A stretch of 34,232 bases of DNA from Nanobdellota archaeon (GTDB lineage: Archaea; Nanobdellota; Nanobdellia; SCGC-AAA011-G17; GW2011-AR17), in assembly GCA_013331795.1 (NCBI GenBank), contig DUFP01000037.1:2177-36408 (forward strand). Reading direction: 5' to 3'. Below, piece by piece: positions 7,903 through 21,540 of this stretch (positions are counted from its first letter, which is position 1; each line of letters begins with the position of its first letter). The translations under genes and the position numbers were made by a program. The notes under the pieces were generated by a model. That model saw only the letters and a list, made by a program, of their open reading frames with translations. It made no database searches and was not told the DNA's origin.

Positions 7903-9138
7903 CTAGGACTTTTTCACCATCTTCTGAATCATCTTCTCCATCTGATCAAACTTTTGCATCATCTCAGAGTTCATAAAGCGCTCATGAGCTTCAGCCATAT
8001 CTTGAAGCTTCTTACGATCTAGAGGTCTCTTACAAGTTACACAAAGCTCTGCGGTAAACCCATTATCGCAACCACAAAAGCCACAGACTTTAGGTTTCCA
8101 TTCTTCATGAACCGGTTTAGTATCCTGAATGCCTCTTCTCTCAAGCTCAATTTGTAAAGCATCCTGTTGCGTACTCATATCATAAATCTTGAGTTGCTTT
8201 GTCGAAGTCCACCGAGCAGCATGCTGAATCTGCATATCACTATCTCCACGCAAGCGTCTATACGTAATGTCATTCCTTTTCAAAGAATAACAAGTCACTT
8301 GCTTTTGTATTCCTAAGTGCTTACAAGCTTGTCGTAAACGAAAGTTAATTGCAGAATTCTTCAGTTGTGTATACTTCCCATTATTACTTTTACTCAAAAA
8401 GAAATAGGTTTGAGGATTCTGTCTAAAAGGATGCTCTCTATACCATTGAGCAATATACGGATAAGAATCTATGCACTGAAGAAAACCAGTTCCTTCTTTT
8501 CCATGCTCAGAAATCCACACTTTTGCATAGCTATCATAAAACTCATAATCCTTAATTTTTGTATAAAGGATTTCTTGTGGTCTACCTAAAGACTCAAAGA
8601 CCAGAGTAAGATACGCTTGCAAAGTGGAATTCCCTGAAAAGAAAGTAATAATCTTCTTGAACTCTTCATACGTAATCCTATCATTCCTCAGCTTTTCCTT
8701 ACTTTTATCAACAGTTCCACTCACATGGCGAACAGTATAGGGAATAAGAGTCTCATCTACTCTTCCATAATGATCCTTTTCAGGAAGGATAATACACCAA
8801 ATGGATTTAAGATCCTTAATAAAATCCTTTTTGCTATGCACAGTCTTATAGACCGTATGACTGTAAGAGACAAGATCATTAATATTTTCTCTTGTACACT
8901 CTGCTAAATCCTTCTCCAGAATAAAAGTAATAAAACGCATCACTTGAAAGACCTTTCTTCTTCGAATATAGCTCAAATCTTTCAAATTAAAATAAGAAAT
9001 CATAACCTGAAAATACTTGAGATTCTCATAATTCTTACAATAATATTTACCCTTACGTGGCTTTTTTGTAAAATTCACCAGTCTTTCAACGAGTTGTACA
9101 TATCTCTCTTTACTTCCATAGATATCATTTTCTGCCAT
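7903..9138 (-). CDS. Tyrosine recombinase/integrase with C-terminal zinc ribbon
   Basis: A 411-residue site-specific recombinase. Residues about 10-140 are a core-binding helical domain and about 150-325 the catalytic domain. Visible active-site candidates are Arg186 (ESLGRPQEIL), Lys214 in the beta hairpin (SEHGKEGTGF), the box II region YSLKRND (284-290), His306 and Trp310 (HAARWTST), and the nucleophile Tyr319 (QLKIYDMS). The classical box II HxxR is not intact: Tyr or Ser stands where His is usual, and Lys287/Arg288 supply the basic residue. Residues 352-369 are a zinc ribbon (CGFCGC...CVTC), and 378-411 a helical tail. The start is preceded by a near-perfect Shine-Dalgarno sequence. The 5' end faces the 3' end of tRNA-Gly(GCC), the usual arrangement for tRNA-targeting integrases. 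Confidence 0.9.
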   Translation of the reverse strand: MAENDIYGSKERYVQLVERLVNFTKKPRKGKYYCKNYENLKYFQVMISYFNLKDLSYIRRRKVFQVMRFITFILEKDLAECTRENINDLVSYSHTVYKTVHSKKDFIKDLKSIWCIILPEKDHYGRVDETLIPYTVRHVSGTVDKSKEKLRNDRITYEEFKKIITFFSGNSTLQAYLTLVFESLGRPQEILYTKIKDYEFYDSYAKVWISEHGKEGTGFLQCIDSYPYIAQWYREHPFRQNPQTYFFLSKSNNGKYTQLKNSAINFRLRQACKHLGIQKQVTCYSLKRNDITYRRLRGDSDMQIQHAARWTSTKQLKIYDMSTQQDALQIELERRGIQDTKPVHEEWKPKVCGFCGCDNGFTAELCVTCKRPLDRKKLQDMAEAHERFMNSEMMQKFDQMEKMIQKMVKKS

Positions 9139-9139
9139 G

Positions 9140-9158
9140 TATACCTCCTTAAGGTATA
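9140..9158 (-). promoter_or_regulatory. Strong Shine-Dalgarno inside an inverted repeat ahead of the integrase
   Basis: On the minus strand AAGGAGGT ends about 5 nt before the ATG at 9138. It lies within a perfect 7-bp inverted repeat, TATACCT (9140-9146) and AGGTATA (9152-9158), with a 5-nt loop. A TATA-like TCTTAAATAG (about 9171-9182) would place transcription start close to 9150, so the repeat may be a protein operator over the start site as well as, or instead of, an RNA hairpin. Confidence 0.55.
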
Positions 9159-9194
9159 GGCCAAGAAATTCTATTTAAGACTAGGGAAGACCTA

Positions 9195-9280
9195 GAAGTG
9201 CATAAGAGTTGAACATAGATGCGACCACTAAAATCCTCCCTTTTATTGGAAGCGCACAGAAGTTGAATAAGAATGCGCGA
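9195..9280. repeat. Pair of degenerate 29-32 bp direct repeats beside tRNA-Gly
   Basis: Copy 1 at 9195-9226 and copy 2 at 9249-9280, 54 bp apart, match at about 21 of the first 29 positions (shared GAAG.GCA.A..AGTTGAA.A...ATGCG). Each contains a short inverted repeat: GCA...TGC extended to GCGCA...TGCGC in copy 2. Copy 2 runs into the last seven bases of the tRNA gene. They lie upstream of the integrase promoter and may be recombinase arm or core sites. Confidence 0.4.
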
Positions 9281-9345
9281 GCCGAGATTTGAACTCGGGT
9301 CTCGACCTTGGCAAGGTCAAATACTAACCACTGTACTACTCACGC
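9274..9345 (-). tRNA. tRNA-Gly (GCC)
   Basis: A 72-nt cloverleaf on the minus strand. Acceptor stem GCGTGAG/CTCGCGC (one G-T pair) with discriminator A. Anticodon stem TGACC/GGTCG with loop TTGCCAA gives anticodon GCC. T arm CCGAG-TTCAAAT-CTCGG. No intron and no encoded CCA, consistent with the CCA-adding enzyme in this window. A TATA box (GGTATATAAAGG, 9370-9381) lies about 30 nt upstream. Its 3' end borders the accessory region and is the probable integration target. Confidence 0.95.
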
Positions 9346-9369
9346 AAACAAGTCCAAAAACAGAACAAT

Positions 9370-9381
9370 CCTTTATATACC
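9370..9381 (-). promoter_or_regulatory. TATA box of tRNA-Gly(GCC)
   Basis: GGTATATAAAGG on the minus strand is centred about 30 nt before the tRNA 5' end at 9345. Confidence 0.6.
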
Positions 9382-9451
9382 TTTCCCAAAAAAAGTCATA
9401 TAAGAAACAAGAAAACCTTTTTTATATCTTCTTTTATTTAAAACTTAAAAA

Positions 9452-9523
9452 TGCGCTAGCTGGGATTTGAACCCAGGTCCAAACCTTGGGAAGGTTTGAT
9501 ACTAGCCCCTATACGACTAGCGC
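9452..9523 (-). tRNA. tRNA-Gly (CCC)
   Basis: A 72-nt cloverleaf on the minus strand. Acceptor GCGCTAG/CTAGCGC (7 perfect pairs) with discriminator A. Anticodon stem AAACC/GGTTT with loop TTCCCAA gives anticodon CCC. T arm CTGGG-TTCAAAT-CCCAG. No intron and no encoded CCA. It is the second glycine isoacceptor within 180 bp. The TATA element for it is less clear (AGCTATTTTAAT near 9549-9560). Confidence 0.95.
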
Positions 9524-9564
9524 ATAACAACTAAAAACAAAGTCCTCATTAAAATAGCTTTCCA

Positions 9565-16354: not shown

Positions 16355-18256
16355 ATGGCAGATATATTAAATGAAATAGTAGCAAAATTACCAAAAGATG
16401 CAGAAATCAGTAATACGAGCTTTGAAGCTGCAAATATTATTGTCTATACAAAAAGCAAAGAATTTTTCTTAGATAACAGAGGGGAAATTAAAAAACTTGT
16501 ATCCGATTTTAAAAAAAGAATTGAACTTCGCCCAGATCCATCTATTAGCATAGATATGGAGAAAGCAGAAAAAATTATTCGAGAAACACTTCCCGCAGAA
16601 GCAAATGTAGACAATATTATTTTTGATGCACCGCGAAGCACAGTCATCATTGAAGCAGAAAAACCAGGCGTCGCTATAGGCCCATCAGGAGAATTCCTTA
16701 AAATTATTAAAGAAAAAACACTCTGGGTGCCAACAATTAGGCGAATGCCATCCATTCGTTCAAAGATTACAGAAAATATTCGCGCAGTCCTCTATGAAAA
16801 TAACGATTCAAGAAAAAAATTCCTCAATGAAGTAGGAAAAAGAATTTACAATGGCTGGATTCGTGGAAGAAAAGATGAATGGGTTCGTGTTACAGTTCTC
16901 GGAGCTGGAAGGCAAGTAGGAAGATCCTGTTTCCTTTTACAAACCCCTGAGTCAAGAATTGTTCTCGACTGTGGAATTAACCCAGCAGCACCAGAAGAAT
17001 ATGCTTACCCTCATTTTGACAGTCCTGAATTTCGCATTAATGAAATTGATGCAGTGATTATTTCTCACGCACACTTAGATCATTCTGCAATGGTTCCTTT
17101 ACTTGTAAAATATGGCTATAGTGGTCCTATTTATTGTACCGAACCAACAAGAGATGTCATGTCTTTATTGGCCTTAGATTTTATCTCTATTGGATACAAA
17201 GACGCACGAAAACCACCTTTTGATGTTGCAGATGTGAAGCAAATGGTCAAGCAAACGATCTGTGTAAACTTTGAAGAAGTCACCGACATCACTCCAGATA
17301 TTCGTATGACCTTTTACAATGCAGGCCACATTCTTGGTTCTGCAATGACACATCTCCACATTGGAAATGGCTTACACAACCTTCTCTACACTGGAGATAT
17401 GTTATACGACAATTCAAATTTACTCGCAAGGGCAATCACGAAATTTCCACGATTAGAAACAGTCATCATTGAATCAACCTATGGTTCAAAAGATGATATC
17501 TTACCTCCAAGAAAAGAAGCAGAAGATCTCTTCATGGACTTGATCAAAAAAACAATTGAGCGTGGTGGAAAGATTCTTCTTCCAGTTTTAGGTGTAGGCC
17601 GTTCCCAAGAGATTATGCTCATGGTAGAGCGTGCAGTTCGTGAAGGCACACTTCCAAAAATTCCTATTCATGTCCAAGGTCTTGTCTGGGACGTAACTGC
17701 AATTCATACTGCATACCCAGAATTTTTCAATCCAGTAGTACGAAAACAAATTTTCTTTGAAGAGCACAATCCATTCCTCTCTGAAATTTTCAAGCGTGTA
17801 GGCTCACAAAAAGAAATGCAGGAAGTCATGCACTCAGAAGGTTCAAGTATTATTATTGCAACATCTGGAATGCTCACAGGAGGAGCTTCTGTAGAATATT
17901 TTAAGGTTCTATCAGAAAATCCAAAAAATATTGTCATTTTAACATCCTATCAAGCAGAAGGATCCCTAGGCCGTCGTATACAAAATGGAGAAAAAGAAAT
18001 TGCTTTTGCATCTGGAGAAAGCAGATCAGAAGTAGTAAAAGTTCGTTGTGAAATTGTAGTAATCAAAGGATTTTCAGGGCATTCCTCCCGCCCACAACTC
18101 ATGGCATTTCTTAGAAATCTTGATCCAAAGCCAAAACGAGTAATTACACAGCATGGAGAAGCATCAAAATGCTTAGACCTTGCTTCTACTGTGCACAAAG
18201 TTATGCATGTAGAAACATCTGTACCAAGAAATCTAGATACAATAAGGCTAGTGTAA
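16355..18256 (+). CDS. fttA: aCPSF1/FttA, beta-CASP ribonuclease with KH domains
   Basis: A 633-residue archaeal homologue of CPSF73, the conserved endo/5'-exoribonuclease that drives transcription termination by cutting RNA behind RNA polymerase. Residues about 1-145 hold the KH-type RNA-binding domains (KPGVAIGPSGEFLKIIKEKT). The metallo-beta-lactamase domain starts near 178 (VTVLGAGRQVGRSCFLL) and has zinc ligands SHAHLDHS (His238, His240, Asp242, His243). The beta-CASP domain includes ESTYGSKDD, LPVLGVGRSQE, ATSGMLTGG and the C-terminal ITQHGEASKC. All key motifs are intact and length is normal. It is 29 bases after psmB, perhaps co-transcribed. The 3' end overlaps the convergent HTH gene by nine bases. 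Confidence 0.95.
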   Translation: MADILNEIVAKLPKDAEISNTSFEAANIIVYTKSKEFFLDNRGEIKKLVSDFKKRIELRPDPSISIDMEKAEKIIRETLPAEANVDNIIFDAPRSTVIIEAEKPGVAIGPSGEFLKIIKEKTLWVPTIRRMPSIRSKITENIRAVLYENNDSRKKFLNEVGKRIYNGWIRGRKDEWVRVTVLGAGRQVGRSCFLLQTPESRIVLDCGINPAAPEEYAYPHFDSPEFRINEIDAVIISHAHLDHSAMVPLLVKYGYSGPIYCTEPTRDVMSLLALDFISIGYKDARKPPFDVADVKQMVKQTICVNFEEVTDITPDIRMTFYNAGHILGSAMTHLHIGNGLHNLLYTGDMLYDNSNLLARAITKFPRLETVIIESTYGSKDDILPPRKEAEDLFMDLIKKTIERGGKILLPVLGVGRSQEIMLMVERAVREGTLPKIPIHVQGLVWDVTAIHTAYPEFFNPVVRKQIFFEEHNPFLSEIFKRVGSQKEMQEVMHSEGSSIIIATSGMLTGGASVEYFKVLSENPKNIVILTSYQAEGSLGRRIQNGEKEIAFASGESRSEVVKVRCEIVVIKGFSGHSSRPQLMAFLRNLDPKPKRVITQHGEASKCLDLASTVHKVMHVETSVPRNLDTIRLV

Positions 18257-19060
18257 TAATTTTTCTTTTCGTAGATCATATCTTCGTCTACAAATATTTT
18301 CAAGATCATAACCTAAAGCAACAATTTCTTTTGTAGTTTTTCCTTGAAGAAGGAATTGCCGTATTTCTGCAGTCTTCCCAACTCCCATCTTTTTTACACC
18401 TTCTCTTTTTTCCAATCCTAACCGTTTTACATGATACCTTAGACTCTCACTATTATCAAAATATTTTTCTTTAAGAGTAGAATCAGAAACATAATTTTTC
18501 CAATCAGTAATAAAAGCAGCTTCCTCTTCTAGAGTCAGGAGATATTTTTTATTTTCCCAAGCAAGTGTAGGTTTTTTATAAGAAACACCATAAAGAGCAA
18601 CAGTAAGTACACGGGAAATAAGAGCACTTGAACGATTAATTTTCATTCTTCCTTCAGCTAAGCCAGATAAACGAATAATCCTATTATATCCCTCTCCAGC
18701 CCTTCGTAAAGCAATGATTCTTTCTAAAGTATCAGCAGAATAATTTTTTCCCCAGCCATATACTTTTTGGCATCTCCATGCAAGAGCATGATCCAAACCC
18801 TTCTCTTTAATCAATCGATCAAAATAATATTGTTGAAGAATATCAAGAAGCTTTTTATTTTCAGCATGTAAAGCACATGTATATTCCTTTCCTGCAGAGC
18901 GTAAATCTTTTGAAGAAAGACCAGAACATTTTTGTACAATTTGGCGTATTCTTTCAATACTAAGATTGTTCTTATGAGCAACATCAACAAATTTTTGACC
19001 CTGAAGAATTTCTTCAAGGATTTCTGCATTCCTATCAGTATATGTATGTGCAAGACTCAT
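18248..19060 (-). CDS. Tandem HTH-repeat protein, paralogue 3 of 3
   Basis: A 270-residue putative DNA-binding protein, most diverged of three neighbouring paralogues. Residues about 10-50 carry a sigma-region-4-like HTH (DVAHKNNLSIERIRQIVQKC). A shared core follows, YYFDRLIKEKGLDHALAWRC then KVYGWGKNYSADTLERIIAL and RRAGEGYNR. The C-terminus ends in one degenerate copy of the repeat seen in paralogue 1 (IRQFLLQGKTTKEIVALGYD, then ICRRRYDLRKEK). Lys/Arg-rich overall. It overlaps paralogue 2 by ATGA, so the three genes form one operon from the promoter near 21386. Function unknown. Transcriptional control or binding of a repeated DNA site are options. Confidence 0.75.
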   Translation of the reverse strand: MSLAHTYTDRNAEILEEILQGQKFVDVAHKNNLSIERIRQIVQKCSGLSSKDLRSAGKEYTCALHAENKKLLDILQQYYFDRLIKEKGLDHALAWRCQKVYGWGKNYSADTLERIIALRRAGEGYNRIIRLSGLAEGRMKINRSSALISRVLTVALYGVSYKKPTLAWENKKYLLTLEEEAAFITDWKNYVSDSTLKEKYFDNSESLRYHVKRLGLEKREGVKKMGVGKTAEIRQFLLQGKTTKEIVALGYDLENICRRRYDLRKEKLLH

Positions 19061-19860
19061 TTTTCCTCTTTAAACATAACTTCCTTTTTCCTTCTGCGAA
19101 CAGTATCACGAGAAAAACCTAACTTAACCATTTCTTTAGATTTTTTTCCATCATAAATCAATGTATCTAACAGAGAATAATTAACAGAAAAAGTAATACA
19201 AGAAGGCCTTCTTTTCAAGCCTAACTTTCTGGCATAATAAGAAGGAGAGCTTACTAAGTGCAAAGTTTCTTTAATCTTATCAGAAGATACTCCTCTATTC
19301 CAAAGCCCCGCAAATTGTATTTTTTCATAAGGAGTAAGTTTTTCTCTTCCATGATGAAATACTTGCTCTAAATGAGAAAGAACAACATCACAAAGTGCTC
19401 TTTTCAAAACAATGCTTGCTTGAGGAAGATTTCTATTCACATCTCTTTTATCTGTTGCAATGCCTGCAAATTTAACACAACGGTAATAGCCTTCACCAGC
19501 TCGTCGCGCAGCAATAAGCTTTTCCAAATCCTCTAAAGAATAGGTCTTTCCAATCTCATACACATCATGACATCTCCAAGCAAGAGCATGATCTAAACCT
19601 CTCTCTTCAATCAATCGATCAAAATAATGCTGTTGAAGAACATCAAGAAGGTTTTTATACTCCATATTCAGAGTTCTTTTATATTTCTTTTCTGTAGCTC
19701 GTAAATCTTTCGAAGTAAAACCGCTATATTCTTGTACAATCTGCCGTATTCTTTCAGAAGTTAAATTATTTATACGAGCAATATGCGAAAAAGCTTCACC
19801 ATGAAGAGCATCTTCAAGAATTTTTCTATTTCTATCCACATATTTATCAGTAAGATTCAT
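19057..19860 (-). CDS. Tandem HTH-repeat protein, paralogue 2 of 3
   Basis: A 267-residue paralogue of its two neighbours: N-terminal HTH (HIARINNLTSERIRQIVQEY), shared core (YFDRLIEERGLDHALAWRCH; IAARRAGEGYYRCVKFAGIA), a second domain with LWNRGVSSDKIKETLHLVSS followed by YYARKLGLKRR, and one C-terminal repeat (YSLLDTLIYDGKKSKEMVKL, then GFSRDTVRRRKKE). It shares a 54-nt identical DNA patch with paralogue 1 (19475-19528 versus 20548-20601), pointing to recent duplication or gene conversion. It overlaps both neighbours by four bases. Confidence 0.78.
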   Translation of the reverse strand: MNLTDKYVDRNRKILEDALHGEAFSHIARINNLTSERIRQIVQEYSGFTSKDLRATEKKYKRTLNMEYKNLLDVLQQHYFDRLIEERGLDHALAWRCHDVYEIGKTYSLEDLEKLIAARRAGEGYYRCVKFAGIATDKRDVNRNLPQASIVLKRALCDVVLSHLEQVFHHGREKLTPYEKIQFAGLWNRGVSSDKIKETLHLVSSPSYYARKLGLKRRPSCITFSVNYSLLDTLIYDGKKSKEMVKLGFSRDTVRRRKKEVMFKEEK

Positions 19861-21359
19861 TTTTCTTTCTCAAGTTCCAGTTTTTCTTTTCTTCGTGTAA
19901 TTGTTACACGAGAAAAACCCAACGTAATTATCTCTTTATTTGTTTTTCCTTCAGAGAGTAATCTATCTAAAATGGAATAATTTACTAGAGATTTTCTTCT
20001 TGAAACACCTAATTCTTTTCTCCTTCGAAAAATGCTTTTCTTAGAAAAACCAGCTTCTACTATTTCTCTATTACTTTTTTCCTCAAAAAGTAATGCATCT
20101 AAAATGGAATAATTAATAGCATTTTGAGAAGATTTTCTTACTAAACCTAACTCTTTCTTCCTTCTTCGAATAATATGCTCAGGAAAACCTAGACTCTCCA
20201 TTTCTGAATAGGTCTTTCCTCCAGAAATAAGATGATCTAAAGAAGAATAATCAACAAAAATTTTCCGAAGTATTGGAATTTCTCGTTTTTTCAAGCCAAG
20301 CTTTCGAACATAATAAGAAGTAGGACTTACTAAGTGTAAAGTTTCTTTTATTTCATGAGAAGATTCACCTCTATTCCACATTTCTTTAAGCTTTTCTTTC
20401 TCTTCAAAACTAAGGCTTCTTCCCTCAGCAAAGTTTTTATGATGAATATCTAAAACAACATCACAAAGTGCCTTTTTTAAAATCGCAGCCATGTGAGGAG
20501 TACGGCTCCGTATTTCTTTCCTAGTCTCTCCTATGCCCGCAAGTTTGACACAACGGTAATAGCCTTCACCAGCTCGTCGCGCAGCAATAAGCTTTTCCAA
20601 AGCCTCTAAAGAATAACTTGTACCCCAGCCATACACTTCTTTGCACCTCCATGCAAGGGCATGATCTAAACCCTTCTCTTCAATGTGCCTATCAAAATAA
20701 TATTGTTGAAGAACACCAACAAGCTCCTTATGTTCCTTATGCAAAGATTTGTTATATTCAGATCTTCTTTTTTTATAATTCTCAAAACCAAATCCTTGAA
20801 GAATCTGAGTTATTCTTTGCGAAGTCAAATTTCTCCCATCTTTCTGTCCTATTTCCTCAAGAGTAAAACGAAACGTTTTTGCCTCTTCAAGAATAGATGC
20901 ATCACGTAAAGAAATTTTTTCTGCTTTAATCTCAAAGGTGGAAGTTCTTTTTTTTCTTTCAGGTAATATATCTGCATGAGCATGATAAAGTCTACGAATA
21001 GCCACATTAGAACAAGAAAGAGTGTCCGCAATTTCTTTATGACTTATTGTTGGATCTTGAAGATATGTAAGTGCTTCTTGTTCAGAATCAGCAGAAAGAC
21101 AATATTTCCTCACAAAAGGCATTTGAAAAGAAATATCCTGTGATTGGAGATATGTAACCCAATGAGAAATAACAGATCTTGATAACAAATATTTTTTTTC
21201 TAAACCACCTAAAGAAAGATCATTCTTAACAATATCCTGAAGCAAGTGAAGTTCTCTTTGTAAATGAGGTGGAGAAAACTCTAAAAGAGAAGGATCGTCT
21301 TTTAAATGAAGATAATGGCCATAAACTTGTTTTTTATAATTTAAAGAACGCTTGGGCAT
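19857..21359 (-). CDS. Tandem HTH-repeat protein, paralogue 1 of 3, with three C-terminal repeats
   Basis: A 500-residue protein and first gene of the operon. Residues 1-150 carry extra HTH-like units (LEKKYLLSRSVISHWVTYLQ; HKEIADTLSCSNVAIRRLYH). Residues about 155-370 match the whole body of the two shorter paralogues (NLTSQRITQILQGF; GLDHALAWRCKEVYGWG; AARRAGEGYYRCVKLAGIG; YYVRKLGLKKRE). Residues 371-498 are three tandem repeats of 44-46 residues, each YSxLDxLxxxGKTxxE, then a hydrophobic turn LGF(S/P), then IxRRRKELG, which looks like a helix-turn-helix. The design suggests reading a repeated or extended DNA site. A TATA box at 21382-21390 is 27 nt from the start. Confidence 0.78.
   Translation of the reverse strand: MPKRSLNYKKQVYGHYLHLKDDPSLLEFSPPHLQRELHLLQDIVKNDLSLGGLEKKYLLSRSVISHWVTYLQSQDISFQMPFVRKYCLSADSEQEALTYLQDPTISHKEIADTLSCSNVAIRRLYHAHADILPERKKRTSTFEIKAEKISLRDASILEEAKTFRFTLEEIGQKDGRNLTSQRITQILQGFGFENYKKRRSEYNKSLHKEHKELVGVLQQYYFDRHIEEKGLDHALAWRCKEVYGWGTSYSLEALEKLIAARRAGEGYYRCVKLAGIGETRKEIRSRTPHMAAILKKALCDVVLDIHHKNFAEGRSLSFEEKEKLKEMWNRGESSHEIKETLHLVSPTSYYVRKLGLKKREIPILRKIFVDYSSLDHLISGGKTYSEMESLGFPEHIIRRRKKELGLVRKSSQNAINYSILDALLFEEKSNREIVEAGFSKKSIFRRRKELGVSRRKSLVNYSILDRLLSEGKTNKEIITLGFSRVTITRRKEKLELEKEK
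19860..20249 (-). repeat. Three in-gene tandem repeats encoding HTH units
   Basis: Repeats of about 138, 132 and 120 nt (20249-20112, 20111-19980, 19979-19860) encode the YSxLD...GKT...LGF...RRRKELG unit at the C-terminus of paralogue 1. Protein similarity is obvious. DNA similarity is moderate, so the repeats are not brand new. Confidence 0.65.
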
Positions 21360-21390: not shown

Positions 21391-21421
21391 ATTTCCACTT
21401 TAAAGTAACTACAAAACAAAA

Positions 21422-21434
21422 CCTTTATAAATAA
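21422..21434 (+). promoter_or_regulatory. TATA box and upstream element of the candidate RNA gene
   Basis: CCTTTATAAATAA, with an A/C-rich TFB-type element before it (AACAAAACC), is centred near 21427. It has no protein-coding gene on its strand within 1.7 kb. The predicted start of transcription, about 25 nt on, falls at the first paired base of the structure at 21452. Confidence 0.55.
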
Positions 21435-21451
21435 CTAATTACTCCTCTAAA

Positions 21452-21540
21452 GTAGTTCATTAAGGCAATCCCTCCCTGTGTTTATTGGTGGCAGCCACAA
21501 GCTGCCCCCTCTAAACCTTTAATAGTTCTACGATATTTTT
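21452..21540 (+). ncRNA. Candidate structured non-coding RNA
   Basis: A locally GC-rich segment in AT-rich intergenic DNA that closes on itself. GTAG (21452-21455) pairs with CTAC (21528-21531). ATTAAGG (21459-21465) pairs with CCTTTAAT (21516-21523) with one bulged T. An apical hairpin GGCAGC (21490-21495)/GCTGCC (21501-21506) has a CACAA loop and two further outer G-C pairs across a T/C mismatch. An oligo-T run (about 21535-21540) follows the closing stem, as at archaeal terminators. It does not show C/D boxes, an ACA tail, or tRNA, 5S, SRP or RNase P hallmarks. Identity is unknown. The minus-strand reading also forms the hairpin, so strand rests on the promoter and T-run. Confidence 0.5.

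Follow-up and report, generated by a model that had tools for sequence, protein, structure and literature searches.

Does a short GC-rich segment in the genome of an uncultured Woesearchaeota archaeon encode a new structured RNA and, if so, on what might this RNA act? The segment lies in a DNA stretch of 34,232 nucleotides, which was analyzed as a whole and is referred to here as the window. In an earlier note, it had been described as a candidate RNA gene with its own promoter and terminator. Its GC content is about 0.44–0.48, compared with about 0.20–0.30 in the flanks, and the plus strand of positions 21422–21540 folds with −24.0 kcal/mol (z = −3.15), which was equalled by none of 200 shuffles. 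The minus strand of the same segment reaches only z = −1.38, and the G-U pairs in the plus-strand reading also favour the plus strand. No reading frame is open across the element and none is conserved. The gene is present in a single copy in its own genome, without any partial repeat. These values bear out the description of a GC-rich segment that folds as a structured RNA, and the stems, TATA box, upstream element, and T-run are all found where the note had placed them (Table 1). The ends of the RNA are inferred, the 5′ end from the geometry of the TATA box and the onset of conservation; the 3′ end remains uncertain.

Table 1. Features of the small-RNA locus, in window coordinates.
Feature	Position	Strand	Support or remarks
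Upstream element GTAACTAC	21405..21412	+	GTAGCTAC, GTAATTAC and similar in relatives; retained in viral copy
TATA box TTTATAAA	21424..21431	+	Near-invariant across host copies
Small RNA	21451..21540 (about)	+	Conservation, covariance-model matches, fold z-score
Closing stem GTAG/CTAC	21452–21455 / 21528–21531	+	
P1, lower stem ATTAAGG/CTTTAAT	21459–21465 / 21517–21523	+	Weakly supported; merely 62.9% of cells paired
Bulge CAAUCCCUCCCUGU, proposed seed	21466..21479	+	Near-invariant, predicted single-stranded; alignment, duplex ranking, whole-genome pattern search
P2, GUUUA/UAAAC	21480..21484 / 21512–21516	+	GUAUG/CAUAC in genus g2
P3, apical hairpin	21487..21509	+	Sequence and length vary, pairing kept
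GGCAGC/GCTGCC pairs	21490–21495 / 21501–21506	+	
T-run	21536–21540	+	Seen only in window and G002

Sequence comparisons revealed that the RNA forms a lineage-specific family, with members in four genera within a single Woesearchaeota family and on one contig of a tailed virus. Homologues were found by DNA search in all six same-genus genomes searched, with short matches in three further genera of the family. A covariance model built from these copies detected the RNA in the seven genomes that represent genus g1, as well as in G007, G014, G010, and G012, with E values from 8e-22 to 7e-6. A search of 103 genomes of the order returned no convincing copy beyond the four genera, and a phylum-wide sample of 371 genomes gave no further convincing case. 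A 21-base core pattern matched nine times in 257 Gb of genome contigs, apparently always in carrier genomes that were already known. One match in G013 (E about 1e-4), which runs antisense over the start of an ORF resembling an AbiEii-type nucleotidyltransferase, was treated as chance. Between the window and its relative G002, one position differs in the segment 21451–21540; in the same comparison, the nre gene has 82.9% DNA identity, with agreement at only 276 of 414 third positions, and the neighbouring Nre and HTH proteins are 86% and 71% identical, respectively.

The promoter is conserved together with the RNA. In the aligned host copies, the TATA box lies 19–20 nt ahead of a conserved AGUAGU or AUUAGU start, and the spacing of both TTTATAAA and the GTAACTAC-like element to this start is constant, which supports the promoter that had been proposed for the RNA. 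The own genome contains a single copy of the sequence GTAACTACAAAA. The TATA promoter and the upstream element would drive transcription, which is itself inferred, and their presence suggests that synthesis is probably regulated. A wider GTAACTAC regulon was rejected, as sites with one mismatch are no commoner than the control, and so was the idea that the upstream AACTAC pairs with GTAGTT where the RNA begins, a pairing that is broken in G004 and G014.

The fold itself is best supported in its upper part. In the model-based alignment, 95.3% of the cells of the upper hairpin (P2 and P3) are paired, and changes on both sides were observed in 9 of its 14 pairs, seven of them among the nine pairs of P3. 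For the whole structure, covariation lies above that of all 500 shuffles and of all slid versions; the alignment used had been fitted to the structure. RNAalifold, run on the same alignment, returned the same upper hairpin with seven covarying pairs. A covariance-model search had been proposed as a check in the note; the relatives aligned with the model show compensatory changes in the upper hairpin. The stems originally listed did not all fare equally well: the apical hairpin is conserved, but the lower stem (AUUAAGG) is weak, and the GTAG/CTAC stem is present in only part of the genus, being missing in G001 and G004 and outside the genus. The T-run, which had been read as a terminator, is not conserved.

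The genes that surround the RNA differ between genomes. In G001, G003–G006, and G012, the order is FttA, RNA, nre, and in the window and G002, HTH-repeat genes are inserted between the RNA and FttA. Since nre (PF04894/PF04895) and the HTH-repeat genes both lie on the minus strand of the window, the RNA is oriented towards nre (convergent) and away from the HTH operon (divergent); the setting between Nre and a divergent HTH operon given earlier is correct for the HTH genes and requires only a change of wording for Nre. In G010, a single related HTH gene occupies the place between the RNA and FttA. Beyond the RNA lies a tyrosine integrase gene (PF00589; L069:2843–3727) on the opposite strand, whose end directly adjoins the 3′ end of the RNA. 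The RNA lies between the genes for an MPG glycosylase and SMC in G014 and between those for MPG and MsrB in G007 (SMC and MsrB were named from their translations). The genes found downstream of the RNA are accordingly an antisense nre, a convergent integrase, SMC, or MsrB, and this absence of a constant downstream gene argues for action in trans. A cis-regulatory leader or riboswitch was rejected because no same-strand downstream gene is constant.

The RNA does not fall into a known class. At the gathering score, Rfam 15 yields only two tRNAs in the window and no match for the RNA, whose best sub-threshold match has E = 2.6. The RUGAUGA, CUGA, and 3′ ACA boxes are absent by inspection, consistent with the previous statement that marks of C/D and H/ACA RNAs are lacking. 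A CRISPR repeat or repeat mimic was rejected, because the RNA is single-copy in its own genome and the segment bounded by GUUUA and UAAAC is not of constant length. The proposal of a real and independent gene for a new structured RNA, driven by a promoter of its own, is therefore strongly supported, as far as sequence evidence reaches, by its homologues, compensatory pairs, and kept promoter and by the lack of an Rfam family, a conserved frame, and a constant downstream gene.

The conserved bulge offers a predicted target. Near-complements of CAAUCCCUCCCUGU in the own genome include the leader of a 776-aa protein, which matches the S_layer_C family (PF05124, E = 2.9e-18) and an S-layer chain in the PDB (9fsa, E = 2e-4) and is encoded on a different contig from the small RNA. 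With this leader, which reads AAUCACACACAGGGAGGUGUUGUGUAAAAAUG and is located at about 45,660–45,720 of contig C21 of the own genome, the seed and its flanks can form an 11-bp run with ACACAGGGAGG, followed by one mismatch and 5 bp, across the Shine-Dalgarno (SD) sequence. The match was first met among near-complement sites and one weak model match and was then tested by ranking 406 leaders, located in stretches totalling 398 kb (about 41% of the genome), together with whole-genome pattern searches. At this scale, the predicted pairing is specific. The S-layer leader ranks first of the 406 with −26.8 kcal/mol, followed by a leader with −20.9 kcal/mol (mean −8.7, sd 3.6), and one of 200 shuffled seeds reached −26.8 kcal/mol. 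The search of the entire own genome located ACACAGGGAGG nowhere but in the S-layer leader and the complement of the RNA itself; of the four sites with one mismatch, none lies before a start codon. No convincing complement to rRNA was found in the own genome (G000), G002, or G003.

Similar results were obtained in other carriers. The S-layer leader ranks first among 138 sampled leaders in G012, with the RNA of that genome, and first among 89 sampled leaders in G010, where both the seed and the leader differ. The leader motif is common to G001, G002, G003, and G006, and G005 shows it with one change upstream. The rankings in the three genera are not independent, since the RNA and the leaders are homologous across genera, and the duplex energies ignore accessibility. 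In G007, from genus g2, the sole S-layer leader found has AGAGG for AGGGAGG and reaches −16.3 kcal/mol with an unchanged seed; no other leader stands out in the ranking of this genome. S-layer leaders from across the order (L190–L219) contain the SD between short complementary ACAC/GUGU arms, in a conserved hairpin that is present whether the genome has the RNA or not. The SD region of the S-layer mRNA has reasons of its own to be conserved in the order, and, as the arms are found throughout the order, part of the complementarity predates the RNA.

The reading that we favour, with moderate confidence, is that of a trans-acting antisense RNA that masks the ribosome-binding site of the S-layer mRNA, like those of Methanosarcina; transcription, binding in cells, and repression as the sign of the effect are inferred. 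The independent gene would give rise to a hairpin in which CAAUCCCUCCCUGU is displayed as a C-rich, unpaired bulge. Together with the bases on either side, this bulge is predicted to pair in trans with ACACAGGGAGG-(U)-GUUGU of the S-layer mRNA leader, and this pairing, by covering the SD just before the AUG, may repress translation of the S-layer protein. A trans-acting RNA of this type is expected to be an independent intergenic unit with its own promoter, which applies here judging from sequence alone, and to contain a conserved unpaired segment complementary to a trans-encoded ribosome-binding site, which applies in the own genome, G012, and G010 and weakly in G007.

In Methanosarcina mazei, an unstructured linker of sRNA162 masks a ribosome-binding site (PMC3510493), and masking has also been reported for the Methanosarcina RNAs sRNA154 and sRNA41 (PMC5867862). 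Like these RNAs, the Woesearchaeota RNA is an intergenic unit in which an unpaired segment is complementary to the ribosome-binding site of an mRNA encoded in trans, with repression as the expected outcome, but it is unrelated to them in sequence, belongs to another phylum, has a predicted S-layer target and a viral copy, and lacks experimental proof. Staphylococcal C-rich-loop sRNAs such as RsaE, which are bacterial and have several targets each, likewise direct an unpaired C-rich stretch at SD sequences. Unlike in RsaE, one leader stands out for the Woesearchaeota RNA, and its seed extends past the SD complement.

An alternative that we regard as unlikely, although it retains some weight, is that the structured RNA mainly binds a protein or the ribosome, as an anti-SD mimic or through a C-rich protein site, and that the S-layer match is a by-product of the unusually strong SD region of this mRNA. 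The seed CCCUCCC resembles the 16S 3′ end ACCUCCU and is unchanged in genus g2 despite poor pairing with the S-layer leader there. Moreover, leaders of genus g8, which belongs to the same family, would pair nearly as well, and the RNA was not detected in that genus. However, the complementarity is not limited to the SD but takes in ACACAG on one side and GUUGU on the other, and the S-layer leader is separated by 5.9 kcal/mol from the next one, with other strong-SD leaders at −20 kcal/mol or weaker. A trans-acting antisense RNA with several mRNA targets, including the S-layer mRNA but perhaps with another as the main target, appears improbable. Some other leaders do reach about −20 kcal/mol, and genus g2 keeps the motif unchanged while lacking a strong S-layer match, but no second leader stands out in any sampled genome and no further start codon of the own genome has a copy of the 11-mer.

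Antisense masking of the S-layer mRNA would also give a simple meaning to the viral copy. The RNA was recognised, with a score of 57.8 bits, on one IMG/VR contig of 37.9 kb (L129/L131), where it has a hairpin variant of its own, the same seed, the GTAACTAC element, and a TATA-like TTTAAAAT. The copy is located between the gene for the terminase large subunit and a small ORF, which is followed by the portal gene. Five related viral contigs are without the RNA, which therefore looks like acquired cargo. Only one viral copy was found: a second match, L130, lies in coding sequence, and the better-scoring of 34 further pattern matches that were inspected either read as coding or lack the structure. 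The idea that the gene is an integration site or mobile-element remnant, at which viruses integrate and of which the viral copy is the attachment site, gains something from the integrase gene that ends at the RNA in G010 but is very hard to sustain, given that the virus carries a complete but diverged gene, including hairpin and promoter layout, between terminase and portal, that inspection by eye revealed no integrase among the ORFs in 18.8 kb of the viral contig, and that the own genome holds a single copy and no partial repeat.

Phages carry host-type RNA genes such as tRNA genes, and the viral copy, likewise of host type and with a promoter layout of its own, lies amid virus structural genes; unlike a tRNA gene, it encodes a putative regulatory sRNA. 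With the same seed and promoter layout, the copy in the tailed virus would most simply act as an antisense RNA that turns down the host S-layer during infection. The virus might gain from lower S-layer synthesis by saving resources, removing a receptor, or easing exit, all of which is inference. We consider that the virus probably captured the RNA to lower host S-layer synthesis, the benefit being inferred. The full proposal, in which a Woesearchaeota virus captured a host sRNA and shuts off S-layer synthesis in infection, as a virus-carried host antisense RNA in Archaea, is tentative and falls somewhat short of an even chance.

Regulators of this kind are already known. What is new is the family, its lineage, the S-layer mRNA as predicted target, and the copy in a virus. 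In the open-access literature, we found no sRNA described in Woesearchaeota and no archaeal virus with a host sRNA. Only a small number of regulatory RNAs in archaea have a target that is known or predicted, and none was found in the literature for Woesearchaeota. If the prediction is true, it provides an sRNA–target pair that is tied to the main surface protein and testable in vitro from sequence alone, and it suggests that a virus exploits this pair. Control of the cell surface by small, symbiont-like archaea and their viruses would then become directly testable.

Several other features of the window and the viral contigs were recorded. The three tandem HTH-repeat genes (18248–21359, minus strand) between FttA and the RNA are absent from most relatives, and their family match is weak, with HTH_28 below the cut-off. 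In the region 7903–9524 (minus strand), a tyrosine-recombinase-like ORF lies beside two tRNA-Gly genes (9273–9346 and 9451–9524) and may mark an integrated element. On the viral contig, L131:1411–5351 contains ORFs resembling the 7-deazaguanine pathway (QueD-, QueE-, FolE-, and QueC-like) and a tRNA-guanine-transglycosylase-like ORF, which suggests modified viral DNA. Finally, a conserved CACCTCTTT(TT)CC motif is found between the terminase and portal genes in L131 (at about 11460), L135, L136, and L132, and in the virus that has the RNA, this motif lies upstream of it.
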